Source: Leisingera methylohalidivorans DSM 14336
GTDB taxonomy: Bacteria > Pseudomonadota > Alphaproteobacteria > Rhodobacterales > Rhodobacteraceae
Assembly (NCBI RefSeq): GCF_000511355.1
Contig: NC_023135.1
Coordinates: 1,452,371 to 1,516,370 of the forward strand
Length of the DNA stretch: 64,000 nt
Direction: 5' to 3'
Part shown: in pieces, positions 10,490-27,313 of the stretch
Layout: the number at the start of each line of letters is the position of its first letter
How positions within the stretch are numbered: position 1 is the first letter of the stretch
The notes under the pieces: generated by a model
The model's input: the letters and a program-made list of their open reading frames with translations, nothing else
What the model was told of the DNA's origin: nothing
The model's database searches: none
Program-made: the position numbers and the translations under genes

Positions 10490-10497
10490 ATCCAGGA

Positions 10498-10526: not shown

Positions 10527-10550
10527 CCTGTGTGAATTTAAGGCGAAGAT

Positions 10551-11489: not shown

Positions 11490-11510
11490 AGCGCGGGAAG
11501 GGGGCGTGTC

Positions 11511-12428
11511 ATGAAAAGCCTTGTTGCAGTCCTCACCGTGCTCACCGCCATCATCGCCCTTTGGTACGCGGCCTGTGTGCCGATGAACATCAAGGGCGTT
11601 CTGGATTCAGCCGAGCGGGCAGGCGTGGAAGTCAGCCCGGCTACCGCCAAGGCGCGCCGGCATATGAGTGAGATCGGGCTGGTGGCGAAAAACACCTTTG
11701 CCGTTGGTGAAACCTGGGTGCAGGAGCGCCCGCGCCTGCCGGCCCCGCATCAGGTGGCTGTGGAGCTGTGGCAGACCACGGCCGAGAAGAAGATCACTTC
11801 CAAACGCAGCCTGATCTATCATGCGCAGGTGACACTTTCGGCGACGCTTTTGGGCTTTGCCATCGGCACCGGGCTGGGCATTCTGCTGGCGGTGGGGATC
11901 GTGCATTCCCGCGTGATGGATATGTCGGTGATGCCCTGGGCGATTGTCAGCCAGACCATCCCGATCATCGCGCTGGCGCCGATGATCATCGTGGTGCTGT
12001 ACTCTATTGGAGTGCAGGGGATCATTCCCAAAGCGGTGATCTCGGCCTACCTCAGCTTTTTCCCGGTTGTCGTGGGGATGGTGAAGGGTCTCAGGGCGCC
12101 GGATGCGATGCAGCTGGATCTGCTGAAGACCTATAACGCCAATACTAATCAGGGGTTCTGGAAACTGCGGTTGCCGTCGTCGATGCCCTATCTGTTTGCC
12201 TCGCTGAAGATCGGCATTGCGGCATCGCTGGTGGGGGCCATCGTGGGGGAGCTGCCGACCGGAGCGGTTGCGGGCCTTGGCGCGCGCTTGCTGGCCGGAA
12301 GTTACTACGGGCAGACCGTGCAGATCTGGTCAGCGCTTTTTGCGGCGGCGATTCTGGCTGCCGCCTTGGTCGCGCTGTTGGGGCTGATGGAGAAACTGGT
12401 GCTGAAGCGGATGGGGGTGCAGGCATGA
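11511..12428 (+). CDS. ABC transporter permease
   Basis: A 305-residue inner-membrane permease of the BPD_transp_1 family. A first membrane helix (about 3-22) is followed by an unusual hydrophilic stretch of roughly 80 residues, then five further helices. The coupling helix facing the ATPase is seen in KTYNANTNQGFWKLRLP. It pairs with the permease encoded next and with the ATPase upstream. The long loop after the first helix (residues 25-100) is not usual for this family and may be periplasmic. The start has a G-rich ribosome site (AAGGGGGCGTGTC). Confidence 0.88.
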   Translation: MKSLVAVLTVLTAIIALWYAACVPMNIKGVLDSAERAGVEVSPATAKARRHMSEIGLVAKNTFAVGETWVQERPRLPAPHQVAVELWQTTAEKKITSKRSLIYHAQVTLSATLLGFAIGTGLGILLAVGIVHSRVMDMSVMPWAIVSQTIPIIALAPMIIVVLYSIGVQGIIPKAVISAYLSFFPVVVGMVKGLRAPDAMQLDLLKTYNANTNQGFWKLRLPSSMPYLFASLKIGIAASLVGAIVGELPTGAVAGLGARLLAGSYYGQTVQIWSALFAAAILAAALVALLGLMEKLVLKRMGVQA

Positions 12429-12513
12429 CTGGCTTATGGAATAGGGGCTCGGCCCTCGCCGCAGCGCGGCTCACCCGGAGTATTTGGCCCAGAAAGAAGC
12501 AGGAGGGCGCGGC

Positions 12514-13359
12514 ATGGTGATGGTTCTGCTTGCGGTGCTGGTCTGGTGTTTGGGCTGGTGGTTGAACAGCCGCCTGGCCAAGGGTCCAGCTGCGCATACC
12601 CGCGCGGTGCAGCTGCTGGTTCCGGCCGTCTTCGGCGTCACCGTGGTGGTGGTCTGGGAACTGCTGGTGCGCGGGTTGGAGGTGTCGCTGGTGATCTTGC
12701 CTGCACCCTCGGTTATCGCTGTGCGCTTTGCCTCCAGCATGCCGATCCTGTGGCAGGACTTTGCCCAGACCATCCTGAAGGGGGCGCTCGGCGGCTATGT
12801 GATCGGCTGCGGCGCGGCGTTCCTGACCGCGATCCTGGTCGACCGCAGCGACTTCCTCCGGCGCGGGCTCCTGCCGGTGGGGAATTTCGTTGCCGCGCTG
12901 CCGATTGTGGGCACCGCGCCGATCCTGGTGATGTGGTTCGGTTTCGACTGGCATTCCAAGGCCGCCGTTGTTGTCGCCATGGTGTTCTTTCCAATGCTGG
13001 TAAACACGGTGGCGGGCTTGCGGGAAACCTCGGCCATGCAGCGCGATCTGATGCAAACCTATGCAGCAAGTTACTGGCAGGCATTTTTCAAGCTGCGTTT
13101 GCCGGCGGCGCTGCCTTTTGTCTTCAATGGGCTGAAGATCTCCACCACCCTGGCGCTAGTCGGTGCGATTGTGGCGGAGTTTTTTGGCTCGCCCACTGTT
13201 GGGATGGGCTTTCGTATCTCTACCAGCGTGGGCCAGCTGGCGCTGGACATGGTCTGGGCAGAGATTGTGGTGGCAGCACTGGCAGGATCGGCCTTTTACG
13301 GGCTGATGGCACTAATTGAGAAAACACTGACTTTCTGGCACCCGTCGCAACGGGGGTGA
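12514..13359 (+). CDS. ABC transporter permease
   Basis: The second 281-residue permease of the importer, with about six helices. The coupling motif is QTYAASYWQAFFKLRLPAAL. ATG at 12514 is set by AGGAGG at 12501-12506 with seven-base spacing; a frame open from 12484 lacks such a site. Two different permeases imply a heterodimeric channel. The 85 bases between the two permease genes contain a copy of a motif seen in several other gaps of this window (see findings). Confidence 0.9.
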   Translation: MVMVLLAVLVWCLGWWLNSRLAKGPAAHTRAVQLLVPAVFGVTVVVVWELLVRGLEVSLVILPAPSVIAVRFASSMPILWQDFAQTILKGALGGYVIGCGAAFLTAILVDRSDFLRRGLLPVGNFVAALPIVGTAPILVMWFGFDWHSKAAVVVAMVFFPMLVNTVAGLRETSAMQRDLMQTYAASYWQAFFKLRLPAALPFVFNGLKISTTLALVGAIVAEFFGSPTVGMGFRISTSVGQLALDMVWAEIVVAALAGSAFYGLMALIEKTLTFWHPSQRG

Positions 13360-13506: not shown

Positions 13507-14493
13507 ATGAAACATCTGATGACGGCGGCAGCGCTGGCACTGGGCACCGCAGGTGCGGCGCAGGCGGCGGATGACGTGACGCTGCAGCTGAAATGGGTGA
13601 CCCAGGCTCAGTTCGCCGGTTATTACGTTGCCGCTGACAAGGGGTTCTATGAGGAAGAGGATCTGAATGTCACCATCCTGCCTGGCGGCCCTGATATTGC
13701 GCCGACCCAGGTGATTGCCGGCGGCGGCGCCGATGTGACGGTGGAATGGATGCCCGCGGCGCTGGCAGCACGTGAAAAGGGCCTGCCGCTGGTTAATATC
13801 GCGCAGCCGTTCAAATCTTCGGGCATGATGCTGACCTGCTGGAAGGACACAGGAATATCCGCACCTGCGGACCTTGCCAACCGCACCCTGGGCGTTTGGT
13901 TCTTTGGCAATGAATTTCCTTTCATGAGCTGGATGAGTCAGCTGGGGATTTCCACCGAAGGCAAAGGCGAGGAGGGCGTTGAGGTATTGAAGCAGGGCTT
14001 CAACGTCGATCCGCTGCTGCAGCGCCAGGCGGATTGCATCTCGACCATGACTTATAATGAATACTGGCAGATCCTTGATGCTGGTGTTGGTGCGGATGAG
14101 CTGATCACTTTCAAGTACGAGGATCAGGGTGTGGCGACGCTGGAAGACGGTTTGTATGTGCTGGAAGAAAACCTCGACGATCCGGAGTTCGTTGACAAGA
14201 TGGAGCGTTTTGTGCGGGCCTCGATGAAGGGCTGGAAATACGCTGAGGAAAACCCGGACGAGGCGGCGGAAATTGTACTCGACAATGATGCGTCCGGTGC
14301 CCAGACCGAGACCCACCAGAAACGCATGATGGGCGAGATTGCCAAACTGACCGCGGGCAGCAATGGTGCGCTGAATCCGGCGGATTATGAGCGGACGGTT
14401 TCAACGCTAATGGGCGGTGGCTCGGACCCGGTCATAACCAAAGTCCCGGAAGGCGCTTGGACCCACGCTATCACCGATGCGGCTTTGAAATAG
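13507..14493 (+). CDS. ABC transporter substrate-binding protein, NMT1/THI5-like
   Basis: A 328-residue periplasmic binding protein. The signal peptide MKHLMTAAALALGTAGAAQA is followed by a mature start ADDVTLQLKWVTQAQFAGYYVA, typical of NMT1/THI5-like proteins that bind pyrimidine compounds. It captures the substrate for the two permeases. The ribosome site is AGGGAGAACAGGAT. The gene is last in the transporter set and followed by a strong terminator; its own promoter probably carries the RutR-like site at 13447. The ligand is inferred from the neighbouring uracil-degradation genes. Confidence 0.92.
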   Translation: MKHLMTAAALALGTAGAAQAADDVTLQLKWVTQAQFAGYYVAADKGFYEEEDLNVTILPGGPDIAPTQVIAGGGADVTVEWMPAALAAREKGLPLVNIAQPFKSSGMMLTCWKDTGISAPADLANRTLGVWFFGNEFPFMSWMSQLGISTEGKGEEGVEVLKQGFNVDPLLQRQADCISTMTYNEYWQILDAGVGADELITFKYEDQGVATLEDGLYVLEENLDDPEFVDKMERFVRASMKGWKYAEENPDEAAEIVLDNDASGAQTETHQKRMMGEIAKLTAGSNGALNPADYERTVSTLMGGGSDPVITKVPEGAWTHAITDAALK

Positions 14494-14642: not shown

Positions 14643-15554
14643 ATGGGAGAGATGCGTGCTCATATCCCTGATCGGCAAAAGCAATCCGGATACCCGCCGC
14701 AATACTTGTGCCTTTGCCCTCAGCCAGACGATATTGCGTGCCATGCACGGTCTGCAGCGCACGGAAGGCCTGCATTGCTGGATGTCGCCAGCAGAAGCTG
14801 CGAACTGCCGCTGATGGATCTCTGCCAGACGGCGCACCAGCGCAAGCTGGAGACCGGACGGGCCCAGATTCTGTTGCTTTACGAAGTGGAGCCGCTGGGG
14901 CTGGAGCTGGCGGCGACTTGGCAGGTTGACGTGATTCCGGTTTCGGTCTGCTGCCTGCAACAGATTACCCACACTGATTTGCTGCACGCCTTGGCCTGCG
15001 GTTTTGATGTCATTCACGTGCAGGTCTGCGCCAGCTCAGCTGACAGGCTGCATCAGCAGCAGGAAGTTGAACTGGTGCAGGTTCTGGGCGGGCTGGGCCG
15101 GGTCTTGCTGTTTGACGGGGCCGAGACTCTTGCACGACGGCTGGCAGCGGGTATTTTCCCGTTTCCTTCGGTTGCGCCGGACATAGTGGCGGTGGGCAGC
15201 CGCAGGGATACCGCACGGGCCAGCGCCGCAGCGCTGCTGCCGGCCAGTGAGGACCATGTAGTCTTGCCGGAACAGGCGCCATACGGCGCCGTCAGCCTGG
15301 ATGAAGGCCAGTGCAACCAATGCAGCAGCTGCGTGTGGGTCTGCCCGTCGGATGCCTTGAGCCTGACCGAAGACGGCGGCGCACTAAGCTTTGTGGAAGC
15401 CATGTGTTTTCAATGCGGCCTGTGCGTTTCGATCTGTCCGCAGCGGGCGCTCAGCATGGAGGCAGGGATGAATCTGTCCGCGTCTGCCGTGTTGCCGCAT
15501 CTGCTGGCGGGGCAAGGCGCGGAAGATGCAGAAGCCCCTGGTCTGGCGGAGTAG
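14643..15554 (+). CDS. 4Fe-4S dicluster ferredoxin-type protein, N-terminally truncated
   Basis: A 303-residue reading frame ending in two ferredoxin cluster motifs, CNQCSSCVWVCPSDAL and CFQCGLCVSICPQRAL, about residues 221-270. The preceding part (GRAQILLLYEVEP, then a Rossmann-like stretch to FDGAETLARRL) resembles the C-terminal half of long (about 650-residue) 4Fe-4S proteins common in Rhodobacteraceae. Those have another Fe-S region upstream and a terminal cysteine pair; both are missing here. The first 60 residues are low-quality sequence, and another frame at 14708-14929 is cysteine-rich, so a frameshift may have removed the true N-terminus. It may still be an electron carrier or already a pseudogene. 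The neighbour on the other strand is a flavin reductase. Confidence 0.6.
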   Translation: MGEMRAHIPDRQKQSGYPPQYLCLCPQPDDIACHARSAAHGRPALLDVASRSCELPLMDLCQTAHQRKLETGRAQILLLYEVEPLGLELAATWQVDVIPVSVCCLQQITHTDLLHALACGFDVIHVQVCASSADRLHQQQEVELVQVLGGLGRVLLFDGAETLARRLAAGIFPFPSVAPDIVAVGSRRDTARASAAALLPASEDHVVLPEQAPYGAVSLDEGQCNQCSSCVWVCPSDALSLTEDGGALSFVEAMCFQCGLCVSICPQRALSMEAGMNLSASAVLPHLLAGQGAEDAEAPGLAE

Positions 15555-15639
15555 GTTTGGGTTCCAGGCTTCGCAAGTGCCGTGGTGCCGGGCATTGGGG
15601 TATGCCGGGGGCCAGGGGCCTGACCTGAGACTGGCCTTT

Positions 15640-16140
15640 TCAGCTCTGCTCCAGGAAGCCGCCGTACTGGCCGCGTTTGAAGATCAGGCCTTTGCCGGGA
15701 CGGGTGGTTACGCTGGCCACTTCACCTATGATGATGGTGTGGTCACCCGCCAGATGGGCGGCAAAGCGGCGGCAGTCAAAGCGGGCAATCACCCCGTTCA
15801 AGGCCGGCGCCCCCTGGCCATTGGGCTGCCATGCTGCGGCACTGAAGTCCTCGCCGCGGGCCGCGAAATGCTTGGCCAGGCCCAGTTGGTCCTCCGCCAT
15901 CACGTGAATGGCGAAATTCTCGGCCATTACAAAGGCATCATGGCGAAGGGACGCTTTGGCCGGGCACCACAGCAATAAAGGCGGATCCAGTGACACGGAG
16001 GTAAAGCTGTTGACGGTAATGGCCAGGGGGCCGCGCGCTGTCATGGTGGTAACTACCGTCACCCCGGTGCCAAAGCAGCCGAGCGCATCGCGGTAGTCCC
16101 GGGCGGTCTCCGGCCCGGGGATGAAGCTGGTGTCGGCCAT
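15640..16140 (-). CDS. flavin reductase family protein (FMN-binding split barrel)
   Basis: A 166-residue FMN-binding split-barrel protein with the family signature TGVTVVTTMTARGPLAITVNSFTSVSLDPPLLL near residues 25-58 and GDHTIIIGEVASV near 131-143. Such proteins supply reduced flavin to two-component monooxygenases; RutF of the Rut pathway belongs here, but no RutA-type oxygenase lies in the window. It is encoded convergently to the Fe-S gene, with only 85 bases between the stops. Its partner enzyme is unknown. Confidence 0.85.
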   Translation of the reverse strand: MADTSFIPGPETARDYRDALGCFGTGVTVVTTMTARGPLAITVNSFTSVSLDPPLLLWCPAKASLRHDAFVMAENFAIHVMAEDQLGLAKHFAARGEDFSAAAWQPNGQGAPALNGVIARFDCRRFAAHLAGDHTIIIGEVASVTTRPGKGLIFKRGQYGGFLEQS

Positions 16141-16205
16141 GTTGCGCGCCTTTTATCCGTTCCGGGCAGTGACGTGCCACGCATGGCGGCGATTGTCTAC
16201 CACGT

Positions 16206-17609
16206 TCATGTCTTCATGAGGCGTCCGTGCTTGCGGGATTCTTCCAGCACCGCGCCAAAGGTGGCAAGCCCGCGTGCCTCAAGCATCGGCAGCATCTTGC
16301 AGAATACCTCAGCGGTGGCGCGGGCGTCCCCCATCGCGGTGTGGCGCAGGGCCGGAGGGATGGCGACGTCCAACCGTTCGCATAGCGCGTCCAGCGTGTG
16401 GTTCTGCGAGGCGCCGAACAGTACTGCGCTCAGCAGCACGGTGTCCAGCACCGGCTGGTCCCAACTGAAACCCGTGCGCTTGGCGTGGCGGTGCAGAAAG
16501 GCCATGTCAAAGGGCGCGTTGTGGGCCACGATCACGGCGTCCGAGGCAAATTGGTGAAAGGCGCGGGCGGCGTCGGAAATCACCGGCGCGCCCTGCACCA
16601 GGGCATCGCTGATGCCATGCACTTTGGTTGAAGCAGCAGGGATTGGCCGACCCGGATCCACAAGGGTTTCAAACGACTCGCTTTCGATAATACGGCCCCG
16701 GACAATCCGCAGTGCGCCGATCTGCACAATCTCGTCCTTATGCGGCAGCAGTCCGGTGGTTTCGGTGTCAAACACCACATAGCTGAGATTGCTGAGCTTG
16801 CGGCTGTCCAGCTCGGCGTGGTCCGTTTCCAGCAGCGCGAAGTCATAGACCAAGGGCCGGGAGTCTCCCGGGGCGAGTTCCGCATGGCTCCCTTCGAACA
16901 GAATGATGTAGCCTGGAGCGCCGCCCAAGGGTTTCAGCCGCAGGTCAAACACCTGGGTGCCGCTGGCGCTTTTGACTTCGGCCTGCACTTCCGTCCCGCT
17001 TCGTATCAGCCGGCCATAGGCGGCCTCCAGACCGGTGAGGTCCAGGTAATCGGACAGCGGCGCATTCAGACGCGGCGGGGCCTCCTGTGCCAGCACCGCG
17101 GCGGCCTGGCCGTCGTAGAGCACGATCTGATGGGAAGGGTTAACCATCACGGTGGCAATAGGGATGTCCGTCAGTAAGGCCGCGAGGCGGTTTTTTTCGG
17201 CCTCCAGATGCTCGGTTTCGCGGGCTATTGCTTCAGCCGCGGACAGCGCCGAGTCTCCCAATTGCCCGGCCAACCCCTCCGCTGCGGCTGCCAGATCACC
17301 GAGATATTGCGCGCCATGGGTGTCGAGCGCCCGCGATACGCCGGCATGGGCGCGGGCGCGCATGCCGGCCGCCAGCCGCTCGATTGGTTTGGCGACGTTT
17401 TCGTCAAACAGCAGCCAAACCGCGGCGCAGAGACCAAGGATGGCAAAACCGCTGAGCAGGCCGGAAAAGACGAAGGCATCCGTCAGTCCGGGCTGTCCAG
17501 CGCGGCTGTAGCCCAGCCACAGCGCGCCTGTGGTGACCGCAATGCCGCCAAGCGCCAAGGCGCAGAAAAACAGGAAGATGCGCAAACGCAAGCTGAGGCG
17601 CGCGTGCAT
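16206..17609 (-). CDS. membrane-anchored DEDDh exonuclease (DNA pol III epsilon-like) with sensor-like N-terminus
   Basis: A 467-residue protein of three parts. Two membrane helices (about 10-33 and 44-68) enclose a short periplasmic loop. A HAMP/PAS-like region follows (about 70-240, with TDIPIATVMVNPSHQIVLYDGQAA typical of PAS). The C-terminal exonuclease domain (275-440) has the full DEDDh set: Asp281, Glu283 (FDTETTG), Asp368 (HNAPFD), His423 and Asp428 (HTAMGD). Proofreading epsilon subunits are cytosolic and lack the first two parts. The gene is last in the minus-strand operon, three bases from its upstream neighbour, with the symporter and DUF294 genes. A sensory or regulatory nuclease is plausible; its substrate is unknown. 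Confidence 0.85.
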   Translation of the reverse strand: MHARLSLRLRIFLFFCALALGGIAVTTGALWLGYSRAGQPGLTDAFVFSGLLSGFAILGLCAAVWLLFDENVAKPIERLAAGMRARAHAGVSRALDTHGAQYLGDLAAAAEGLAGQLGDSALSAAEAIARETEHLEAEKNRLAALLTDIPIATVMVNPSHQIVLYDGQAAAVLAQEAPPRLNAPLSDYLDLTGLEAAYGRLIRSGTEVQAEVKSASGTQVFDLRLKPLGGAPGYIILFEGSHAELAPGDSRPLVYDFALLETDHAELDSRKLSNLSYVVFDTETTGLLPHKDEIVQIGALRIVRGRIIESESFETLVDPGRPIPAASTKVHGISDALVQGAPVISDAARAFHQFASDAVIVAHNAPFDMAFLHRHAKRTGFSWDQPVLDTVLLSAVLFGASQNHTLDALCERLDVAIPPALRHTAMGDARATAEVFCKMLPMLEARGLATFGAVLEESRKHGRLMKT

Positions 17610-17611
17610 GG

Positions 17612-18130
17612 CTACCCTCCGCAGGCGGTTGTCAGAATAGTATCGTCCGGAGTGCCCGCCACCCAGTCAAGCCCCTTGGGCAGGCCACTGCCGGAAAACA
17701 CGATAGTGCCTGCTGCCAGCGCCCGCCGCCATTTGCCGCAATCCAGCACCACGGGCCGGCTGTTGACCGGTGCCCAGCGGCCAAAGAAATAGATCTCGGC
17801 CAGATAGACCTCAGGGTGCGCCTGGTGGCTTTTCATTGTCGCAGTATCCAGCGCGGCAAAGCGGTCGATGTAAGGCACGGCATAGGTCCAGGGCCGGTAG
17901 AAGCTTTGGTTTTCAACTGTGTCCGCTACGACCAGCCCGTCTGGCAAGGCTGCGGCGGTGCGCGGGTACCAGCCGTATTCCGAAGCGATGGTAGCCGCGA
18001 TCATCGCTAGTCCCGCCGCCACCGGCGCCAGCCAGCGCGGCAGGCGACCGCGCATGAATTTTCCCAGCAGCATGACAACGCCAGCTGCAGCAATACCGGC
18101 AAAGATCACCGCAATCAATTCCAGAAACAT
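17612..18130 (-). CDS. uncharacterised inner-membrane protein of the symporter operon
   Basis: A 172-residue protein with two N-terminal membrane helices (about 4-26 and 34-52) and a soluble remainder containing FYRPWTYAVPYIDRFAALD and YFFGRWAPVNSRPVVLDC. Two cysteines remain in the soluble part. I do not recognise a characterised family. MFLELIAV is preferred as the start because GGGAGTTGAG precedes it; the upstream in-frame ATG lacks this. It sits between the DUF294 protein and the membrane exonuclease with a three-base gap to the latter, so the three are probably made together. Confidence 0.75.
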   Translation of the reverse strand: MFLELIAVIFAGIAAAGVVMLLGKFMRGRLPRWLAPVAAGLAMIAATIASEYGWYPRTAAALPDGLVVADTVENQSFYRPWTYAVPYIDRFAALDTATMKSHQAHPEVYLAEIYFFGRWAPVNSRPVVLDCGKWRRALAAGTIVFSGSGLPKGLDWVAGTPDDTILTTACGG

Positions 18131-18223
18131 CTCAACTCCCCGCAGGCCCAAGGCCGCTTCTTTTTTGTCCAAATATTTGCGCCGTAAGCTCCCGCGCTCC
18201 CGCGCTGCCGACAGGCGGAGGTG

Positions 18224-20053
18224 TCAGCTTAGCATGGCTTTGCCGTGCCCAACCGCCGATTGCATCGTCTTTACCACAACAAAGGCGTCGCGCAGATGAC
18301 TTCGCTCAAAATCCGAAAGATCGGACGGCGCCAGGTAATTGTCCGGCGCCTGGCCGCTGCGGATCTGTGCGGCCTGATGCTCGAGCCGGGTCTGGGAAAT
18401 CAGATCGTAGGCGTCCAGCAGATCGCGCGCACCGGAGGGGCTGAGCACGCCCGCTGCTTCTGCCGCCTCCAGCCGGGCGCGGGTGTCCACTACGGGCAGC
18501 TTGCCCTGCAGCGCATAGACCCGGCCCAGGTCGACCACCGGCACCACGCCGTTGTGCTTCATATCCAGCGTATTGCGGTGTTCGCCCGAGCGGATGGTGG
18601 CCAGCCCGCGCAAGAGACCCAGCGGCGGCGTGTGCTTCAACGAATTGGCGATCAGATGCGCGGTGAAGATCGAATTAGCGCTGGCGGCCTGCAGGGTCTC
18701 CTGGTGAAGACCGGCAAACAGCGCGGCCTCGCCGCCGATCGGGCGCAGGTCGAACATCACCGAGGCCAGCATCTGCGCCTCGGGATCAGGTTTGGCGATC
18801 CAGCCGCGGAAGTAATCGCGCCAAACGCGCAAGGGCTGCCGCCAGCGGCCATTCGACGCCATCATGTCGCCGGGGCAGTAGACGTAGCCGCAGGTATTCA
18901 GCCCGTCGCAGACGAAACCGGCAAGCTGCGCGAAATAGACCTCATCGCCGGACGCCAGATCGTCGGACAGGATCAGGCAATTGTCCTGATCGGACACGCC
19001 GGTCTGTTCGCGCCGCCCCTGTGATCCGCAAGCAAGCCACAGATAGGGCACCGGCGGCGGACCCAGTGCCTTCTCGGCCAGCGCCAGCAGGCGGCGGGTC
19101 ACGATGTCGGCGATGTCGGTTATCAGCCGCGTGACGATTTCATGGCGGTTGCCTGCGGCCACCAGCTGCACCAGCAGACGGGGGATCTCGGCGGTGACCC
19201 GGGCCATGTCCTTGGCACTGGTGGCGCGGGTCAGGGCTGATACCAGCTCAGCTGAGCTGACAGCCTGGAACCGGGTCAGATCGGTCTGGGTGACAATGCC
19301 TGCCAGCACGCCGCGCTGCATAACCGGGATATGACCGATGCCGTGCTCCATCATCAGGTGCAACACGTCCGAGCCAATAGCCGACGCATCCAGTGTCAGC
19401 GGGTCCGGGGTCATCATGGCGGCAACAGGGGTCGAAATGGGTTTGCCCGCAGCCAGAACCTTGGCGGTCAGGTCGCGGGTGGTCAGTATGCCTTGCAGCT
19501 GGTCGCCATCGGTGACGCAGACCGAGGATATGCCGTGATCCCGCATCAGCTGCGCCGCGCCCTGGCACGTCAGCCCGCTGGAGCAGGTGACGGGCGCGCG
19601 GGTCATGATTGCCTCGACCCGCGTGGTGGCGAGGCTGTTGCTGCCGACGCTGCCGGGGCGGCGCCGGTCAAAGAACCTCGCGACCTGCGGCTGGCTGGCC
19701 ATCAGGTTGTGGAAATCTCCTGTTGGCAGCAACAGCAGCAGGCTGTCGGTGATTGCCCGTGCCGAAGTTACAGCGCGACCGCCGCGGGTCAGGCCGCGCT
19801 CGCCAAAGGAATTGAGCGGGCCAAGGATCGAGACGGGGATGTTGTTTTCATCCCGAACCTCCACCTCGCCGCTGTGGACCAGGTAGAGGCCGTCCAGCTC
19901 CGCGTTCAGCACATAGACGGGGGCGTCTGCGGCAGTCTCAATCTGGCGGAACCTGGGTGCCAGCTCCTGCAGTAGCGCCGGGTCGAGGCTGTCGTAGGGA
20001 TGAACAGAGGACAGGAAGCGGAGCAGGGCGGCGTCGGAAAGGGGCATGATCAT
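18224..20053 (-). CDS. cNMP-binding / CBS / DUF294 nucleotidyltransferase-like protein
   Basis: A 609-residue cytosolic regulator-like protein. Domains in order: a cyclic-nucleotide-binding domain (12-120, with LDGLYLVHSGEVEVRD and FGERGL), two CBS domains (about 148-205 and 210-265), and a DUF294 nucleotidyltransferase-like domain (from about 300) with ACGSQGRREQTGVSDQDN: the GS of the fold at 343-344 and the acidic pair Asp355/Asp357. The last is the pattern of GlnD-like uridylyltransferases. It thus could sense a nucleotide and modify a partner. It lies between the symporter and the exonuclease genes. Start may be 20053 or the second ATG at 20047. Confidence 0.88.
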   Translation of the reverse strand: MIMPLSDAALLRFLSSVHPYDSLDPALLQELAPRFRQIETAADAPVYVLNAELDGLYLVHSGEVEVRDENNIPVSILGPLNSFGERGLTRGGRAVTSARAITDSLLLLLPTGDFHNLMASQPQVARFFDRRRPGSVGSNSLATTRVEAIMTRAPVTCSSGLTCQGAAQLMRDHGISSVCVTDGDQLQGILTTRDLTAKVLAAGKPISTPVAAMMTPDPLTLDASAIGSDVLHLMMEHGIGHIPVMQRGVLAGIVTQTDLTRFQAVSSAELVSALTRATSAKDMARVTAEIPRLLVQLVAAGNRHEIVTRLITDIADIVTRRLLALAEKALGPPPVPYLWLACGSQGRREQTGVSDQDNCLILSDDLASGDEVYFAQLAGFVCDGLNTCGYVYCPGDMMASNGRWRQPLRVWRDYFRGWIAKPDPEAQMLASVMFDLRPIGGEAALFAGLHQETLQAASANSIFTAHLIANSLKHTPPLGLLRGLATIRSGEHRNTLDMKHNGVVPVVDLGRVYALQGKLPVVDTRARLEAAEAAGVLSPSGARDLLDAYDLISQTRLEHQAAQIRSGQAPDNYLAPSDLSDFERSHLRDAFVVVKTMQSAVGHGKAMLS

Positions 20054-20152
20054 ACCTGCGTGACATCAAGAAAAATGGTCCCGCCGAGTGTGAACCGGAC
20101 GGGACCATGAGGAAAGAGGCGGGCCGCAGGGAGAACGGCCCGCCAGGGGAGG

Positions 20153-21937
20153 TTAGTGGTCCTGTGCGGCCCCTGCGCCGCGCGGGATGCGGACGCTTTC
20201 CACCAGCTCTTCGATCTCGGCAGGAATGGCCGCGGTCGATTTGGAGACGATGAAGGCGACTGCGAAATTGACCATTGCGCCGATCGCACCGAAGGAGGTG
20301 GATTTGACGGTGCCCAGCAGCGGATCCGCATCGGTGAAGGAGTTGGTGTCCGGGATGAACAGCCAGCCCTTGTGCAGGAAGATGTAGACCAGGGTCACGA
20401 TCAAGCCTGCCAGCATGCCGGCCACGGCGCCCTTGTTGTTCACCTTTGTGAAGATGCCCATCATCAGCGCCGGGAAGATCGAGGCAGCGGCGAGGCCAAA
20501 GGCCAGCGCCACGGTCTGTGCCGCAAAGCCGGGCGGGTTCAGACCCAGATAGGTCGCCACCGCAATCGCCACGGCCATGGCAATGCGGGCCGACAGCAGT
20601 TCGCCCTTTTCCGAGATCTGCGGGTTGATCGAGCCTTTGATCAGGTCGTGCGAAACGGCCGAGGAGATCGCCAGCAACAGGCCCGCCGCGGTCGACAGCG
20701 CCGCCGCCAGACCGCCGGCAGCCACCAGGCCGATCACCCAGCTGGGCAGGTTGGCGATTTCCGGGTTGGCCAGAACCAGGATGTCCCGGTTGAACTTGGT
20801 CAGCTCATTGCCAGCCCAGCCGTTGGCTTCGGCAGTTGCTTGCAGATCGGCGTTCTGGTCGTTGTAGTACTGAATTGCTCCGTCGCCGTTCTTGTCTTCC
20901 CAGGCCAGGAGGCCGGTTTTCTGCCAGGTCGCCATCCAGTCGTACTGCGGATCGTTCTCGATCTGCTGCACGGTCACGGCGCCTCCTTCGATGCCGCCAT
21001 TGGGCCACATCATCTCGGTGATATTGAGGCGCGCCATAGCGCCAACTGCCGGAGCGGTCAGGTACAGCAGCGCGATGAACACCAGCGCCCAGCCTGCCGA
21101 CCAGCGCGCATCAGCGACGCGCGGTACGGTGAAGAAGCGCATGATCACATGGGGCAGGCCCGCGGTGCCGATCATCAGCGACAAGGTGAAAAGCACCATG
21201 TTGAAGGTGTCGGAATGATGCGTGGTATACTCGTTAAAACCCAGTTCGCGGACAATTGCGTCCAGCTTGGCCAGCAGCGGCTCACCCGAAGCGGCATGGT
21301 CGCCGAACAGGCCCAGGGCCGGAACCGGGTTGCCGGTTAGCTGCAGTGAGATGAAGATCGCCGGGATAGTGTAGGCCATGATCAGCACGCAGTACTGCGC
21401 CACCTGGGTGTAGGTCACGCCCTTCATGCCGCCGAACACGGCGTAGGCAAAGACCACACAGGCGCCGATCAGCAGGCCGGTAGTGTTGGAAACCTCCAAG
21501 AAACGGCCGAAGGCAACGCCGACGCCGGTCATCTGGCCGATCACATAGGTGGTCGAGGCCACGATCAGGCAGATCACCGCGACGATGCGCGCGGTCGGGG
21601 AGTAGAACCGGTCGCCGATGAACTCGGACACGGTGAACTTGCCGAACTTGCGCAGGTAGGGGGCCAGCAGCAGCGCCAGCAGCACATAGCCGCCGGTCCA
21701 GCCCATCAGAAAGGTCGAGTTGTCATAGCCGGTAAAGGCGATGAGCCCCGCCATCGAGATGAAGGAAGCCGCCGACATCCAGTCGGCCGCGGTGGCCATG
21801 CCGTTGGTGACCGGGTGAACACCCCGGCCGGCGGCATAGAATTCCGAGGTGGAGCCCGCCCGGGCCCAGATGGCGATGCCGATATAAAGCGCAAAACTCG
21901 CGCCCACGAACATCAGATTGATGGTGAACTGGTCCAT
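20153..21937 (-). CDS. sodium:solute symporter, VC_2705 subfamily (acetate-type)
   Basis: A 594-residue SSS-family permease with about 13 membrane helices. MDQFTINLMFVGASFALYIGIAIWARA opens the protein and AADWMSAASFISMAGLI carries the Na+/substrate region. A soluble loop with NGDGAIQYYNDQNADLQ lies near 360-385; its DKNGDGAIQ stretch is EF-hand-like. The small DUF4212 protein encoded one base upstream is its usual partner. Adjacent acs indicates acetate or another short carboxylate as substrate. The DUF294 gene follows 99 bases downstream. Confidence 0.9.
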   Translation of the reverse strand: MDQFTINLMFVGASFALYIGIAIWARAGSTSEFYAAGRGVHPVTNGMATAADWMSAASFISMAGLIAFTGYDNSTFLMGWTGGYVLLALLLAPYLRKFGKFTVSEFIGDRFYSPTARIVAVICLIVASTTYVIGQMTGVGVAFGRFLEVSNTTGLLIGACVVFAYAVFGGMKGVTYTQVAQYCVLIMAYTIPAIFISLQLTGNPVPALGLFGDHAASGEPLLAKLDAIVRELGFNEYTTHHSDTFNMVLFTLSLMIGTAGLPHVIMRFFTVPRVADARWSAGWALVFIALLYLTAPAVGAMARLNITEMMWPNGGIEGGAVTVQQIENDPQYDWMATWQKTGLLAWEDKNGDGAIQYYNDQNADLQATAEANGWAGNELTKFNRDILVLANPEIANLPSWVIGLVAAGGLAAALSTAAGLLLAISSAVSHDLIKGSINPQISEKGELLSARIAMAVAIAVATYLGLNPPGFAAQTVALAFGLAAASIFPALMMGIFTKVNNKGAVAGMLAGLIVTLVYIFLHKGWLFIPDTNSFTDADPLLGTVKSTSFGAIGAMVNFAVAFIVSKSTAAIPAEIEELVESVRIPRGAGAAQDH

Positions 21938-21938
21938 C

Positions 21939-22223
21939 TTATTCTTCCTCCACGCCGTATTCGCGGTCCAGTTTGTTCATCCGGAACGCGTAGAAAAAGA
22001 TCAGCCCCAGGAACACCAGGATCGAGCCCTGCTGAGCGAACCAGAAGCCCAGATCGCTGCCGCCTACCTTGATGCCGGACAGCATCGGGCGCAGCAGAAT
22101 GCCAAATCCGAACGAGACGACAGCCCAGATCACCAGGCTGACAAGAATGATGCGCACGTTTGCCGCCCAATAGCCCTTGTCGGACTCGGCAGTTTGCGCA
22201 GAGTGTGTGGTTTGTTCCGCCAT
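21939..22223 (-). CDS. DUF4212 symporter small subunit
   Basis: A 94-residue membrane protein with two helices (VRIILVSLVIWAVVSFGFGI and FWFAQQGSILVFLGLIFFYAF) and the family ending MNKLDREYG. DUF4212 proteins are found directly before VC_2705-type sodium symporters and are thought to be their small subunit. The start is fixed by AGAAGGAGGAACCGCTG. Its stop is one base before the symporter start, so translation is probably coupled. Confidence 0.9.
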   Translation of the reverse strand: MAEQTTHSAQTAESDKGYWAANVRIILVSLVIWAVVSFGFGILLRPMLSGIKVGGSDLGFWFAQQGSILVFLGLIFFYAFRMNKLDREYGVEEE

Positions 22224-22382
22224 CAGCGGTTCCTCCTTCTTCCTCTCCTGTGCGGCCCGGCCTGGGGCTGGGCACACGGTCTCCGTTGACCCGGCGCCGG
22301 TTCAGGGCGTGCAGGCATGCAACCTCCGGTCCGGCGGGCACGGGGCCTGCCGGTTCCAGCGGGTATTTTCATTTCGGATAAG

Positions 22383-22414
22383 ACGGGGTCCGGCGCGGTT
22401 CGCACCGGCCCCGT
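22383..22414 (-). terminator. hairpin after adk
   Basis: ACGGGG and CCCCGT with inner arms CCGGTGCG and CGCGCCGG form a long GC stem about 11 bases beyond the adk stop. The T-rich side (TTTCTT) reads on the plus strand, so it may act weakly on the minus strand and allow read-through toward DUF4212. Confidence 0.5.
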
Positions 22415-22424
22415 TTCTTGGTCG

Positions 22425-23108
22425 TTAGCTGGTGGCCGTCCTTACGATGGCCGCCATTTCATGGGCGATGTCGTCGATGCCGCCCATGGCATCTGTGGAT
22501 TGCAGAACGCCTTTGCCGCTGTAATAGGCGATCAGCGGCGCGGTCTGCGCGTGATAGGCCTCCAGCCGGCTGGCAACGGTTTCTGCGTTATCGTCAGCAC
22601 GCCGCTTCATTTCAGAGCCGCCGCATTTGTCGCATCTACCGGCCTCGGCGGGCTGCTTGAAGCTATCGTGATAGCCCTCGCCGCAGCCGCCGCAGGTGTA
22701 GCGGCCGGAGATCCGCTCGACCATCGCCGCATCATCCACCTCGAGGCTGATCGCGGCGTTGATTTTCTGGCCAGTCTCGGCCAGCAGGCCGTCCAGCGCT
22801 TCGGCCTGCACGGTTGTGCGGGGGAAGCCATCAAGGATCACGCCCTTGGCGCAGTCCGGCTCTGCCAGACGGTCGCGCAGGATGTTGATCACGATCTCAT
22901 CGCTGACCAGCTGGCCTGCTTCCATCACCGCTTTGGCAGCCAGGCCCGCAGGCGTGCACGCGGCCACTGCGGTGCGTAGCAGGTCGCCCGTCGACAGCTG
23001 CACGTAGCCAAATTTTTCCTCCAGCATCCGCGCCTGGGTGCCCTTGCCGGCGCCCGGAGGCCCCAGCAGGATCAAGACGGCGGGGCGGGTCATGACTGCC
23101 ATGTTCAT
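22425..23108 (-). CDS. adk: adenylate kinase, zinc-lid type
   Basis: A 227-residue enzyme converting AMP + ATP to 2 ADP. The P-loop is GPPGAGKGTQ near the N-terminus. DGFPRTTVQAEAL and the LID domain are of the long form, with a zinc knuckle CGGC...CDKC (C-x2-C-x16-C-x2-C). The start MNMAVMTRP lies seven bases after the acs stop, so the two are surely co-transcribed; this start is chosen because an upstream one would overlap acs. The acs reaction yields AMP, which adk recycles. Most adk genes lie in the ribosomal-protein cluster, so this may be a second copy. Confidence 0.92.
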   Translation of the reverse strand: MNMAVMTRPAVLILLGPPGAGKGTQARMLEEKFGYVQLSTGDLLRTAVAACTPAGLAAKAVMEAGQLVSDEIVINILRDRLAEPDCAKGVILDGFPRTTVQAEALDGLLAETGQKINAAISLEVDDAAMVERISGRYTCGGCGEGYHDSFKQPAEAGRCDKCGGSEMKRRADDNAETVASRLEAYHAQTAPLIAYYSGKGVLQSTDAMGGIDDIAHEMAAIVRTATS

Positions 23109-23115
23109 CTGTTTA

Positions 23116-25077
23116 TCACCCCTTGTTCGCGCGGTTTGCAATCAGGTCGTCGACCACCGACGGATCGGCAAGAGTCGATGTATCGCCAAGGCTGCCAAAG
23201 TCGTTCTCTGCGATCTTGCGCAGGATGCGGCGCATGATCTTGCCGGAGCGGGTTTTCGGCAGGCCCGGCGCCCACTGGATCACGTCGGGCGAGGCAATCG
23301 GGCCGATCTCGGTCCGCACCCAGGTACGCAGCTCCTTCAGCAGTTCATCCGAAGGGTCGCGGTCGTTCATCAGGGTCACGTAGCAGTAAATGCCCTGGCC
23401 CTTGATCTCATGCGGGTAGCCGACCACGGCGGCCTCGGCTACGGCGGTATGGGCCACCAGCGCGCTTTCAACCTCGGCTGTGCCCATGCGGTGGCCGGAG
23501 ACGTTGATCACGTCATCGACGCGTCCGGTGATCCAGTAATCGCCGTCCTCGTCGCGGCGGCAGCCGTCGCCGGTGAAGTAGTAACCTTTGTAGTCAGAGA
23601 AATAAGTCTTCTCGAACCTCTCATGGTCGCCCCAGACGGTGCGCATCTGACCCGGCCAGCTGTCCTTGATGCACAAAACGCCTTCCACGCCGTTGCCCTC
23701 GATCTCGCCGCCGCTGGTGGGGTCCAGAACCACCGGCTGGATACCAAAGAAAGGTTTCATCGCGGCGCCCGGCTTCATTGCGTGGGCGCCCGGCAGCGGG
23801 GTCATCAGATGGCCGCCGGTCTCGGTCTGCCACCAGGTATCAACGATCGGGCATTTGCCCTTGCCGACAACCTCATTGTACCAGTTCCAGGCCTCGGGGT
23901 TGATCGGTTCACCCACCGTGCCCAGCACCTTGAGATCGCTGAGATCGCATTTTTCGACCCATTCGTTACCCTGACCCATCAGTGCGCGCAGCGCTGTGGG
24001 GGCCGTATAAAACTGATTCACCTTGTGCTTTTGGCAGACTTGCCAAAAGCGTGAGGCATCGGGATAGGTCGGCACGCCTTCGAACATCAGCGTGGTGGCG
24101 CCGTTGGCCAGCGGGCCATAGACGATATAGCTGTGGCCGGTGACCCAGCCCACATCCGCGGTGCACCAGTAGATGTCGCCATCGTGGTAATCGAAAGTGA
24201 TCTCATGGGTCATCGCGGCATAGGCCAAATAGCCGCCGGAGGTATGCACAACGCCCTTGGGCTGGCCGGTGGAGCCGGAGGTGTAGAGGATGAACAGCGG
24301 ATCCTCGGCGTTCATCTCGGCGGGGGCGCAGTAATCATCCGCTTCCAGCGCCATTTCATTGTAGTCAAAGTCGCGCCCGTCGACCCAGGTGGTCTGGCCG
24401 CCAGTGCGTTTGACCACCAGGCATTTAACGCTGTCCTTGGTGTGCAGCAGCGCCGCGTCGGCGTTCGACTTCAGGGCGGTCTTGCGGCCGCCGCGGGGGG
24501 CCTCATCGGCGGTAATGACCACTTTGGCGTCGCAGCCGTTGACCCGGGCCGCCAGCGCGTCGGGGGAGAATCCGGCAAACACGATGGAATGGATGGCGCC
24601 GATCCTGGCGCAGGCCAGCATGGCATAGGCCGCTTCGGGGATCATCGGCAGGTAGATCACCACGCGGTCGCCTTTGCGCACCCCCATCGACACGAGGATG
24701 TTGGCCATCCGGCAGGTGCGGCGGTGCAGTTCCTTATAGGTAATGTGCTGCGCAGGTTCTTCCGGGCTATCCGGTTCCCAGATGATCGCGGTCTGATCGC
24801 AGCGGTTTTCCAGGTGGCGGTCGATGCAGTTGGCGCTGACGTTCAGGGTGCCGTCGCTGTACCAGTTGATCGAAACATTGCCAAAATCATAGTTCACGTC
24901 CTTCACCTGGGTAAAGGGCTTGATCCAGTCGATGCGCTTGCCTTGTTCGCCCCAGAACCCTTCAGGGTCGGTCAGCGAGGCGTCATACATCTCCTGATAC
25001 TTGGCGGCAGTCACATGCGCACGGGCAACGGTTTCGTCGGACGGCGGATAGACAGCGTCTGCGTGCAACGCGTTCAT
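23116..25077 (-). CDS. acs: acetyl-CoA synthetase
   Basis: A 653-residue AMP-forming ligase making acetyl-CoA from acetate, ATP and CoA. Adenylation motifs are [18 protein letters not shown] and [16 protein letters not shown]. The C-terminal catalytic lysine is Lys613 in [14 protein letters not shown], the residue known in the family to be acetylated for control. Length is typical of Acs (about 650). The start at 25077 follows GGGAGGAAACC. It leads the minus-strand operon acs-adk, with the symporter genes further downstream. The long upstream gap (490 bases) probably holds the regulated promoter. Confidence 0.95.
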
Positions 25078-25566
25078 TCGGTTTCCTCCCAGAATTTTAT
25101 TGGCAAGACAAACGACAACGCTGTGCCGTGGCTGTCAAACCGTTTCCTCCTAGGGTCAAACAATACCGCAGTTTGAAAATTTGTGAATAAGGTACCGATA
25201 TCAAAGGCTTTACCTGTCAACTAATTTAAGGATTTCAGATTTTCTTGTAAATAAAGTGGCGTGCAAGCGGATGCGGCGGTCTGTTTTCATAGGCTTTTCT
25301 GTAAATTTCGCCAGCGGCCTGTTGCTGCCTCAATCGCTGCAATGGGCTTAGGAGCGGCGTACTGCCGCACCTTCCGGCAGCTTAGCACCTGCGGCATATT
25401 GTGCCTGTGCGGCGGAACTTTCGCTTCGAGGACGGCGCGAGTCGCTGCGTCACCTTTCCCTTCGAGGGGCTTGGCAGCGCCTATCTGTGCCGCTAGCCTG
25501 CCTGTTAAGCGCTCCACTCCGGTCAGATGCCGGATCGAAAAGGGCGCAATTCGGGAGAGTTACATC
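25078..25566. promoter_or_regulatory. divergent promoter region of acs and the TRAP operon
   Basis: A 489-base gap between divergent genes. The part near acs (25150-25260) is AT-rich (AAATTTGTGAATAAGG, TCTTGTAAATAAAGTGG) and a likely promoter zone. The rest is GC-rich with no convincing reading frame or named operator. Confidence 0.5.
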
Positions 25567-26583
25567 ATGAATAGATTTCTGACGGCCGCTGTGGCGGCAA
25601 CTGCTGGCGTAGCAATGGCAGGCGAGGCCGCCGCGACCGAATGGAACGTGTCGCTGTGGGGCAAGCGCCGCGCGTTCACTGAACATGTGGAAAAACTGGC
25701 CGAGCTGGTGGCGGAGAAAACCGGCGGCGAGTTCACCCTGAACATCAGCTATGGCGGCTTGTCCAAGAACAAGGAAAACCTCGACGGCATTTCCATCGGT
25801 GCGTTTGAAATGGCGCAGTTCTGTGCCGGCTACCACCGTGACAAGAACCCTTCGATTACCGTGCTGGAACTGCCGTTCCTGGGCGTGAACACGCTGGACG
25901 AAGAAGTGGCCGTGGCAAATGCGGTGTACGCGCACCCGGCGGTGCAGGCGGATCTGGCGCGCTGGAATGCCAAGCTTCTTATGACCTCCCCAATGCCGCA
26001 GTACAATATCGTGGGCACAGGTGAGCCGCGCGATGAGCTGGCAGAGTTCAAGGACATGCGGGTCCGTGCCACTGGCGGCATCGGCAAGGCGTTCTCGGCT
26101 GTCGGCGCAGTGCCGACCTCGGTGACCGCGACGGAAGCATACAATGCAATGGAATCCGGCGTCGTGGACACCGTCGCCTTTGCCCAGCACGCGCATCTGG
26201 CCTTTGGCACCATCAATCGCGCTGACTGGTGGACCGCGAACCTGAACCCCGGCACCGTGAACTGCCCGGTGGTGGTGAACACCGATGCCTATGAGGCCCT
26301 TAGCGACGCCGAGCGTGCGGCACTCGACAGCTCCGTTGAAGAGGCGATCGACCACTATCTGACCAACTACGGTGCTCTGCTGGAGAAGTGGGACAGCGTG
26401 CTGGCCGAGAAAGGGGTCGAGAAAATCACCATCTCTGACGACCAGCTGGCCGAGTTCCACAAAGTGGCCGCCGACCCGATCCGCGCTCAGTGGATCGAGG
26501 ATATGACCGCCCAGGGCCTGCCGGCGCAGGAGCTTTATGATCTGGTGCAGAAGACTCTTAGCGATCACCGCTCAGGCAGCTGA
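25567..26583 (+). CDS. TRAP transporter substrate-binding protein (DctP family)
   Basis: A 338-residue periplasmic binding protein. The signal peptide MNRFLTAAVAATAGVAMAGEAAA is followed by TEWNVSLWGKRRAFTEHV. The family arginine region is DMRVRATGGIGKAFSAVGAVP, then TATEAYNAMESGVVD, the usual ligand-contact segment. It delivers a carboxylate to the DctQM permease encoded next. The ATG is set by GGGAGAGTTACATC. A frame open further upstream (from 25261) lacks a ribosome site. The ligand is unknown; it lacks clear hallmarks of the C4-dicarboxylate subgroup. Confidence 0.9.
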   Translation: MNRFLTAAVAATAGVAMAGEAAATEWNVSLWGKRRAFTEHVEKLAELVAEKTGGEFTLNISYGGLSKNKENLDGISIGAFEMAQFCAGYHRDKNPSITVLELPFLGVNTLDEEVAVANAVYAHPAVQADLARWNAKLLMTSPMPQYNIVGTGEPRDELAEFKDMRVRATGGIGKAFSAVGAVPTSVTATEAYNAMESGVVDTVAFAQHAHLAFGTINRADWWTANLNPGTVNCPVVVNTDAYEALSDAERAALDSSVEEAIDHYLTNYGALLEKWDSVLAEKGVEKITISDDQLAEFHKVAADPIRAQWIEDMTAQGLPAQELYDLVQKTLSDHRSGS

Positions 26584-26600
26584 GCCGGACGAAACACATA

Positions 26601-26632
26601 GGGCCGGGCTGATCAGGCCCGGCCCCTTTTTT
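26601..26632 (+). terminator. terminator/attenuator between dctP and dctQ
   Basis: GGGCCGGGC-TGATCA-GGCCCGGCCC followed by CTTTTTTCTTT. A strong hairpin inside a TRAP operon allows more binding protein than permease. Confidence 0.85.
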
Positions 26633-26662
26633 CTTTGACGATACTGAACGACGGGGGCGGGC

Positions 26663-27313
26663 ATGGCAGGCAGCGCAGCAGTGCTGGAGGACGGAAGCCT
26701 GATCAGCAGGCTGGACCAGCGGCTATTGAAAGCAGAGCGCCTACTGGCGCTTCTGAGCGGCATAGCGGTATTTTCGCTGATGATCCTGGCGGTGGTCTCG
26801 GTCGGTGGGCGCAATGCGGCCAATGCGCCCTTGCCCGGTTACGTCGACTGGATCGAACAGATTATGCCGCTGATCGCCTTCATGGGCATCGCCTATGTGC
26901 AGCGCAATGGCGGCCATATCCGCATGGACATCGTTATCGGCGCCCTTAGCGGCCGGGCCATGTGGCTGTTTGAGATGATCTCGGTCATTCTGATCTTGCT
27001 GCTGATTGCAGCGCTGGTCTGGGGCAGCTGGTCGCATTTCCTGCGCTCCTTTGATTTTGCCGCGCCTTGGTGGAGCCGCGACAGCTCCATCGACATCGGC
27101 CTGCCGATCTGGCCCGCCAAACTGCTGGCTCCGGTGGCCTTTGCGGTGCTGGGCCTTCGGCTGATGCTGCAGATCTGGGGCTATGGCCGGGCGCTGGTTC
27201 TGGGGCTGGAGACGCCGGTGGCGGTGCCGCTGGTGCAAAGCGCCGCGGAGCAGGCCGCGGCAGAGGCGGATCAATTGGAAGGCCATGACACGAACAGCAG
27301 CGGGCAGGGATAA
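26663..27313 (+). CDS. TRAP transporter small permease (DctQ)
   Basis: A 216-residue membrane protein with four helices (about 32-55, 69-90, 102-123, 150-170) in the DctQ arrangement, including MPLIAFMGIAYVQRNGGHIRMD, the conserved stretch of the family. It forms the scaffold for the DctM channel. The N-terminal 28 residues and the acidic C-terminal tail are variable. It is five bases before dctM. Confidence 0.9.
   Translation: MAGSAAVLEDGSLISRLDQRLLKAERLLALLSGIAVFSLMILAVVSVGGRNAANAPLPGYVDWIEQIMPLIAFMGIAYVQRNGGHIRMDIVIGALSGRAMWLFEMISVILILLLIAALVWGSWSHFLRSFDFAAPWWSRDSSIDIGLPIWPAKLLAPVAFAVLGLRLMLQIWGYGRALVLGLETPVAVPLVQSAAEQAAAEADQLEGHDTNSSGQG

Follow-up and report, generated by a model that had tools for sequence, protein, structure and literature searches.

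A DUF294 protein and a membrane-bound sensor exonuclease in a putative monocarboxylate uptake and activation block of Leisingera methylohalidivorans

Pseudomonas relatives and the seven-gene block

The pairing of a DUF294 protein with an exonuclease is already known from Pseudomonas, and we liken the locus described here to PP_0354-PP_0353 of P. putida, PA3232-PA3235 of P. aeruginosa and Pflu5625 of P. fluorescens, all members of the MxtR/ErdR (CrbS/CrbR) regulon. In P. putida, pp_0354 and pp_0353 are reported as an operon of the acetate system MxtR/ErdR, in which a CBS/DUF294-type protein is followed by an RNase_T-family exonuclease, as in our block (PMC9927547); ErdR binds the pp_0354 promoter, and acetate induces pp_0354 (PMC8402216). 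The P. aeruginosa homologues adjoin actP and yjcH (PMC9927547), PA3232-PA3235 are up about 16-fold on propionate with no growth defect reported there upon deletion of PA3234 (PMC9765439), and PA3234 expression needs MxtR/ErdR (PMC5436829). Pflu5625 is described as a cAMP-binding/CBS/nucleotidyltransferase protein in the CrbS/R regulon together with Acs and ActP, and nucleotidylation was suggested for it with reference to Aravind and Koonin (PMC5715377). The tie of these systems to an acetate/pyruvate symporter and acs is thus one of regulation or position (PMC9927547, PMC5715377, PMC8402216, PMC9765439).

Acetate-regulon membership and mutant phenotypes have accordingly been observed by others (PMC9927547, PMC5715377, PMC8402216). 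Deletion of pp_0353 or pp_0354 is reported to have no effect at 20 mM acetate; on pyruvate, the pp_0353, mxtR, erdR and actP-I mutants are impaired and the pp_0354 mutant is normal, and transposon fitness data cited in the same paper point to a role for actP-I and pp_0353 at 5 mM acetate (PMC9927547). In P. fluorescens, the change in acetate growth upon deletion of Pflu5625 or actP is given as negligible (PMC5715377). A sequence-only reading of the present DNA had tied the DUF294 and exonuclease genes to acetate use and had called them the best candidate for a poorly described system. The former holds for the exonuclease on pyruvate and at 5 mM acetate but not for growth of P. fluorescens or of P. 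putida at 20 mM (PMC9927547, PMC5715377); the latter is right in part, since members and regulation are published and it is the biochemistry that was not found in the cited literature.

The locus of Leisingera methylohalidivorans is a variant of this pair with acs-adk and a sensor exonuclease. In the window (the whole stretch of 64,000 nucleotides that was analysed), the following features, all on the minus strand, were assigned.

23116..25077, minus: acs, acetate-CoA ligase (AMP-forming), first gene of the block (AcsA equivalog TIGR02188, 1012.6 bits, cut-off 724.95)
22425..23141, minus: adk, adenylate kinase (TIGR01351, 247.5 bits, cut-off 168)
21939..22277, minus: DUF4212 small subunit of a Na+/solute symporter (TIGR03647, 110.2 bits, cut-off 26.05)
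20153..21937, minus: large subunit of a VC_2705-family Na+/solute symporter (TIGR03648, 808.5 bits, cut-off 320.75)
20118..20144, minus: terminator-like hairpin in the 99-base gap between symporter and DUF294 genes (10 pairs, 9 of them G-C, poor T run)
18224..20053, minus: DUF294 protein with cNMP, two CBS, GlnE-like nucleotidyltransferase and DUF294_C domains (Pfam, alignment, AlphaFold model)
19694..19927, minus: its cNMP-binding domain, residues 43-120 (PF00027, 48.9 bits)
19268..19624, minus: its CBS pair, residues about 144-262 (PF00571 twice, CBS 80.6 bits)
18779..19189, minus: its nucleotidyltransferase domain, residues 289-425, motif GSQGR...SDQDN (PF03445, 160.5 bits)
18248..18670, minus: its DUF294_C domain, residues 462-602 (PF10335, 155.7 bits)
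17612..18130, minus: uncharacterized protein of 172 aa with two predicted hydrophobic helices plus a conserved beta domain that carries two invariant Cys (start by homology)
16206..17609, minus: membrane-bound sensor exonuclease, 467 aa (RNase_T domain and homologue comparison)
16824..17609, minus: its sensor part, residues 1-262, with two hydrophobic helices (by eye), a linker and PAS (by homologue L036)
16302..16778, minus: its DEDDh 3'-5' exonuclease domain, residues 278-436 (RNase_T PF00929, 127.1 bits, cut-off 24)

In the direction of transcription, the order is acs–adk–DUF4212–symporter–DUF294–uncharacterized gene–exonuclease, with a 26-base overlap (given by the first in-frame start of adk) followed by spacings of 147, 1, 99, 93 and 2 bases, the 93 being computed with the later start of the uncharacterized gene. 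The five minus-strand ORFs of the sequence-only reading are present and intact in the ORF list and by Pfam/NCBIfam domains, but the end it had set at 22223 (a later in-frame ATG of the DUF4212 gene) stopped short of adk (22425-23141) and acs (23116-25077), which lie directly upstream on the same strand; those five genes thus make up the downstream portion of an acetate block of seven. The complete order is kept in six of the eight loci fetched from the host's family (L032, L033, L034, L037, L038 and L039); L036 has the block without adk, and L035 a diverged form in another arrangement. In the genome profiled (4.65 Mb, three contigs), TIGR03647 and PF03445 each match once, and adenylate kinase is found twice, the second copy being at G000:C1:212026. 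Among homologues that carry a name, those nearest to the proteins of the block come from Leisingera. In the cited literature on these genes (open-licence papers), we found no mention of the acs-adk block or of the phylum-wide pairing, the fusions and the pseudo-kinase form described below.

The symporter had been called acetate-type. Both subunits exceed the curated cut-offs of the VC_2705 family, and their genes are adjacent with the ORFs one base apart, so that the pair belongs to that family with a putative substrate; the ActP acetate symporter equivalog (TIGR02711) is rejected at 145.1 bits against a cut-off of 1099.25. The block thus differs from the Pseudomonas systems in its TIGR03648 plus DUF4212 symporter and in the sharing of one block by acs, adk and the 172-aa protein. 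A tyrosine in the tail of the small subunit, considered as the site of a nucleotide mark, was discarded, the position being Y, F or H in most relatives.

The hairpin at 20118..20144 is a possible attenuation point; it is a consensus match only, of a kind found 14 times between 15000 and 26500 against 8.8 expected. A riboswitch candidate is reported upstream of TIGR03647 genes (PMC6429828). Rfam, which may not hold this candidate, gave two matches in 15000-27000 at E up to 1, both below the gathering threshold and unrelated. A role in anti-phage defence was also considered and set aside, since PADLOC gave no system-specific hits on several genes among the four proteins scanned: the DEDDh part of the exonuclease accounted for its matches to four models (DEDDh, PDC-S48 twice and Effector), the DUF294 protein matched only PycC (13.6 bits, residues 24-94), and the 172-aa protein and the symporter had zero matches.

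Pairing of DUF294 and DEDDh exonuclease across the phylum

PF10335 was found in 123 of the 299 genomes sampled from the phylum, although GlnD-like proteins may account for the weakest matches counted (E about 1e-4 to 1e-3), and above the cut-off in 115. Around the best 150 matches, 120 stretches were chosen (about 19 kb at most, less where a contig ended; three hold two matches), and pairing was counted directly from profile hits. Among the matches listed, 104 of the 120 DUF294 loci have a DEDDh exonuclease on the same strand no more than 4 kb away (101 within 1 kb and three farther off), and three have one on the other strand at up to 4 kb; the two enzymes are fused in five loci (L136, L138, L143, L145 and L151), and in eight no exonuclease was found in the fetched stretch. 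In two of these eight, a sensor exonuclease is encoded elsewhere in the genome, namely at 13.6 kb (G262) and unlinked (G270). The nuclease is N-terminal of DUF294 in all five fusions; according to Pfam, those in L138 and L143 consist of the nuclease followed by CBS-CBS-DUF294-DUF294_C, with no cNMP domain reported. The association of DUF294 with the exonuclease is far beyond chance, and this pair is the core of the system. Co-occurrence had been proposed as the check on the five genes as a set, and for the enzyme pair a restriction to close relatives is ruled out.

When 1696 genes picked from 121 loci (the 120 plus the block) were clustered, DUF294 was present in 119 loci, stand-alone DEDDh in 78, sensor-DEDDh in 23, the SSF symporter in 71, DUF4212 in 45, an SSF-type kinase in 30, acs in 26, the 172-aa protein in 16 and a response-regulator-like cluster in 25, one checked member of which is a receiver domain. 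Greedy picking of genes for linkage counts lost some ORFs, for example the symporter in L040 and the exonucleases in L056, L057, L123, L137, L140 and L147, so that its counts are lower bounds; with its score limit, it placed the symporter in 64 loci against 71 by clustering. Symporter, DUF4212, kinase and acs are all absent nearby in 48 of the 121 loci, an upper bound because greedy picking lost some ORFs found otherwise, and this counts against a switch dedicated to uptake.

The 172-aa protein, in turn, is tied to the symporter. DUF4212 and SSF genes are present in all 16 loci with this protein, and in seven (L050, L053, L097, L099, L100, L128 and L147) it follows the symporter instead of the DUF294 pair; the sequence-only reading, which placed this two-helix protein among the five genes, had missed this tie. 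Among the 149 genomes of the host's family, it occurs in 71, with a DUF294_C match no more than 2 kb away in 70 of these, and five of the 75 genomes with a DUF294_C match are without it (76 matches with E up to 1.6e-27 were used, weaker ones possibly being GlnD-like). The protein probably begins at residue 15 of its ORF, judging from its homologues (465 in number), and every readable name among the best 120 of these is "hypothetical" or "uncharacterized". Its model (pLDDT 89) shows a beta domain and two helices, at 2-25 and 34-60, that look hydrophobic by eye; C131 and C170 (later-start numbering) are invariant in 44 sequences and in the 16 copies of the loci. It may serve the symporter as an accessory or outer sensor.

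The sensor exonuclease and the DUF294 protein

The exonuclease belongs to the DEDDh class by its RNase_T domain and the residues D281, E283, D368, H423 and D428, and its activity is predicted on that basis. Intact catalytic residues had been noted in both enzymes, and this is borne out across the families: D281, E283, H423 and D428 are kept in 97-99% of 118 exonucleases, and the motif GSxGR...DQD in 123 of 124 ORFs of the DUF294 family. The third acid of the DEDDh set, D368 in the block, corresponds to an alignment column with Asp in 75, Glu in 41 and another residue in two of the 118 members. The nearest solved sequences to the domain are the PolC exonuclease and Pol III epsilon.

The N-terminus had been read as a membrane sensor with PAS. 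Pfam reports no PAS in this copy, but L036, whose sensor part is 44% identical, passes as PAS_4 (26.6 bits, cut-off 23.1), so PAS is assigned by homology; among four long homologues, L065 and L108 fall below the Pfam cut-off for PAS and L035 has no match. The linker may be HAMP-like, judging from its position. While no known secretion signal is described for the P. putida exonuclease (PMC9927547), that of the block has a membrane anchor and a PAS-type sensor. When the 299 genomes were searched with a profile of the sensor part, 39 of them yielded 40 strong matches (E up to 5.6e-39, the next match being at 9.7e-19). A DUF294_C match is no more than 5 kb away for 37 of the 40 and 13.6 kb away for one; of the other two, one is unlinked in a genome with DUF294 elsewhere and one sits on a contig for which no DUF294_C match is listed.

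Eighteen members, furthermore, are long (635-760 aa), and a profile of the segment that separates their PAS from the nuclease matches the HisKA and HATPase part of the SSF-type kinase profile (hhalign probability 97.9, E 5.7e-13 in a single comparison); the nuclease profile, taken as a control against the same kinase profile, gave a probability of 0.1. Pfam found no kinase domain in the four long proteins scanned, and another residue stands in place of the phosphoacceptor His both in the aligned sequence and in the consensus. The module would hence be homologous to, but degenerate from, the kinase module of CrbS-type SSF histidine kinases, with a nuclease as the output. The exonucleases of the block and of L032, L033, L034 and L037 have no kinase-like stretch, whereas L036, L038 and L039 of the same family retain much or all of it. 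Since long members have the stretch and some roseobacters do not, it looks as if the ancestor was a sensor kinase carrying a nuclease and part of the roseobacters later dropped the dead kinase, although this direction is inferred. Such a pseudo-kinase exonuclease represents an unusual wiring of a sensor to a nuclease.

The DUF294 protein is a member of the cNMP-CBS-nucleotidyltransferase family, with PF00027, PF00571 twice, PF03445 and PF10335 in order and the nucleotidyltransferase motif. The AlphaFold model of its DUF294 half resembles GlnE and DrrA, both of which act on proteins and are the only nucleotidyltransferase-type entries among the 50 fold-comparison rows listed; several neighbours in the comparison are bound to AMP, ADP or ATP. 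It thus probably attaches nucleotides to a protein, as far as a model with pTM 0.56 and pLDDT below 50 at residues 351-354, within the active-site motif, can indicate. The quality of this model and a cNMP pocket with no family-wide conservation both count against the switch model considered below. The likeness to the AMPylase DrrA is one of fold, with domains, host and setting being different. GlnD combines ligand sensing and transfer on one chain, a likeness to the DUF294 protein, and has HD and ACT domains, and GlnE has two transferase halves. The DUF294 protein has neither the HD/ACT domains of GlnD nor the two halves of GlnE (Pfam, E 0.1); its sensing domains are CBS and cNMP, and the presumed remover is a separate DEDDh enzyme. 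The nucleotidyltransferase fold is nonetheless common to them, as the fold match with GlnE suggests, and DUF294_C has been grouped with the C-terminal domains of GlnD/GlnE, a helical domain of the same class (PMC3710099).

A possible nucleotide-based switch and its alternatives

Tentatively, and at a little under an even chance, we read the block as an operon for uptake and activation of monocarboxylate (acetate and/or pyruvate) with its own nucleotide-based switch, in which the DUF294 protein and the exonuclease oppose each other. The DUF4212 and TIGR03648 subunits would import the acid, a putative substrate, with Na+, Acs would produce acetyl-CoA and AMP, and Adk would recycle the AMP. The DUF294 protein would sense an adenylate, perhaps also a cyclic nucleotide, through its CBS and cNMP domains and would add AMP or UMP to a protein; this mark would most likely shut down uptake or the control of uptake. 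The DEDDh enzyme, kept at the membrane by its PAS sensor, would act in opposition and turn uptake on, either by cleaving the nucleotide from the target or by degrading the product. AMP is attractive as the input because Acs releases AMP, adk is in the block and CBS pairs bind adenylates.

That the pair adds and removes a nucleotide mark had already been suggested from the sequence. It is still the best-fitting reading, given the fusions, the GlnE/DrrA-like fold and the published mutants, with transfer and reversal being inferred. With the DUF294 protein as the writer of an inhibitory mark and the exonuclease as its eraser, a mutant in the eraser should resemble one in the transporter, and a writer mutant should have no phenotype, which is the published pattern; the same pattern would also be expected if the exonuclease alone matters. 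Of the earlier interpretation as a whole, therefore, the grouping of the genes stands, while acs and adk had been missed, the symporter is not the ActP equivalog and the two-helix protein is tied to the symporter. A more specific form, reversible protein nucleotidylation in which the DUF294 protein AMPylates or UMPylates the symporter, an SSF-kinase cousin or Acs at high AMP and the kinase-derived membrane sensor nuclease erases the mark, is unlikely. Against the switch in general, to our knowledge, no DEDDh enzyme removes a nucleotide from a protein, the known substrates being nucleic acids; for the specific form, we know of no earlier protein de-nucleotidylase with a nuclease fold. If true, nonetheless, it would be a GlnD/GlnE-like circuit for carbon uptake, namely a covalent acetate/pyruvate switch as the carbon counterpart of the classic nitrogen switch, and a widespread one in view of the genomes with PF10335 above the cut-off.

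The exonuclease might instead be an RNase that shortens or degrades specific mRNAs, those of TCA/glyoxylate enzymes or of transporters, with the DUF294 protein as a separate adenylate sensor that shares or tunes the operon. This is rather unlikely, even though the DEDDh domain is nearest to the PolC and Pol III epsilon exonucleases and the P. putida authors, who report a phenotype for the exonuclease mutant alone, speculated on mRNA decay for the nuclease by analogy with Corynebacterium glutamicum (PMC9927547); the frequent pairing and the five fusions (among the matches listed) argue for a shared substrate or complex, and the Asp/Glu variation of the third acid may indicate a specialised role. 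A pair for a second messenger or for RNA tailing, in which the DUF294 protein makes a short oligonucleotide or tails an RNA end and the exonuclease degrades the product, would also account for enzymes encoded or fused together, and DEDDh enzymes do degrade short oligonucleotides. The protein-acting GlnE and DrrA, as the sole nucleotidyltransferase-type entries among the fold rows listed, make it still less likely.

Loss of transfer activity, with the DUF294 protein as a ligand-binding scaffold that regulates the exonuclease, would be consistent with the absence of a demonstration of nucleotidyl transfer by this family in the cited literature and with the normal growth reported for the DUF294 mutant (PMC9927547), but a motif kept in nearly all ORFs of the family would be improbable without catalysis, and we consider this improbable. 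The two enzymes could, finally, be neighbours only through a shared promoter, as the reported lack of an acetate phenotype in the DUF294 mutants of P. fluorescens and P. putida would allow (PMC5715377, PMC9927547). Pairing across the phylum, the fusions and the fact that in Pseudomonas the DUF294 gene is regulated together with acs and actP (PMC5715377, PMC8402216) leave very little room for such an unlinked arrangement.

Returning to the switch, some observations from Pseudomonas do not favour it. The mutant pattern comes from one strain, which has an ActP transporter and an exonuclease reported with the RNase_T domain only, and fits equally an exonuclease acting alone on RNA (PMC9927547); acetate growth, moreover, was unaffected in the DUF294 and actP mutants of P. 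fluorescens (PMC5715377) and in P. putida at 20 mM (PMC9927547).

An SSF-type kinase, a label taken from the symporter profile with the Pfam SSF model silent on the two kinases scanned, is also encoded in the host genome (L157:7262-10009, about 915 aa) and is 39% identical to the L097 kinase over the SSF part. Beside it lies a receiver protein of 144 aa (L157:6557-6991), a length that leaves little room for a DNA-binding domain. The two genes are located at about G000:C1:1442556-1446008, approximately 23 kb from the block and outside the 64-kb window.

SSF-type kinases and the third DEDDh acid

In several of the stretches fetched around DUF294 loci in other genomes (L042, L065, L083, L098, L101, L105, and L107-L109), the sensor exonuclease has a histidine kinase nearby that is 806-941 aa long and was typed as SSF by its match to a symporter profile, and in L042, L065, and L083 a receiver-like gene also lies beside the exonuclease and the kinase. 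The host has a kinase of this type in a row of three genes to the left of the window:

L157:5130-10009, XRE-type regulator (typed by eye), 144-aa receiver protein, and SSF-type histidine kinase, in that order

In the aligned exonucleases of the fetched loci, the third DEDDh acid is Asp in 75 of 118 and Glu in 41, with Ile and Arg in one each. A DUF294 homologue with 77% identity (P0135) carries the label Nocardioides marinus; this record is perhaps mislabelled or contaminated.

Other genes in the window

Outside the seven-gene block, the window has the following genes of note:

15640-16140, minus strand, flavin-reductase-domain protein (domain scan)
14643-15554, plus strand, protein whose cysteine-rich C-terminus resembles an iron-sulfur ferredoxin (by eye)
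3983-13359 and 13507-14493, plus strand, dihydropyrimidine dehydrogenase-like, amidase, dihydropyrimidinase, and ABC transporter genes (by eye) with an NMT1/THI5-like binding protein (domain scan)

Judged from sequence, the last set looks like one for pyrimidine degradation and uptake. The flavin-reductase-domain gene lies downstream of the exonuclease and on its strand, with 65 bases between the two. Of the family loci compared, L032 has a gene of the same cluster in this place and the six others do not.
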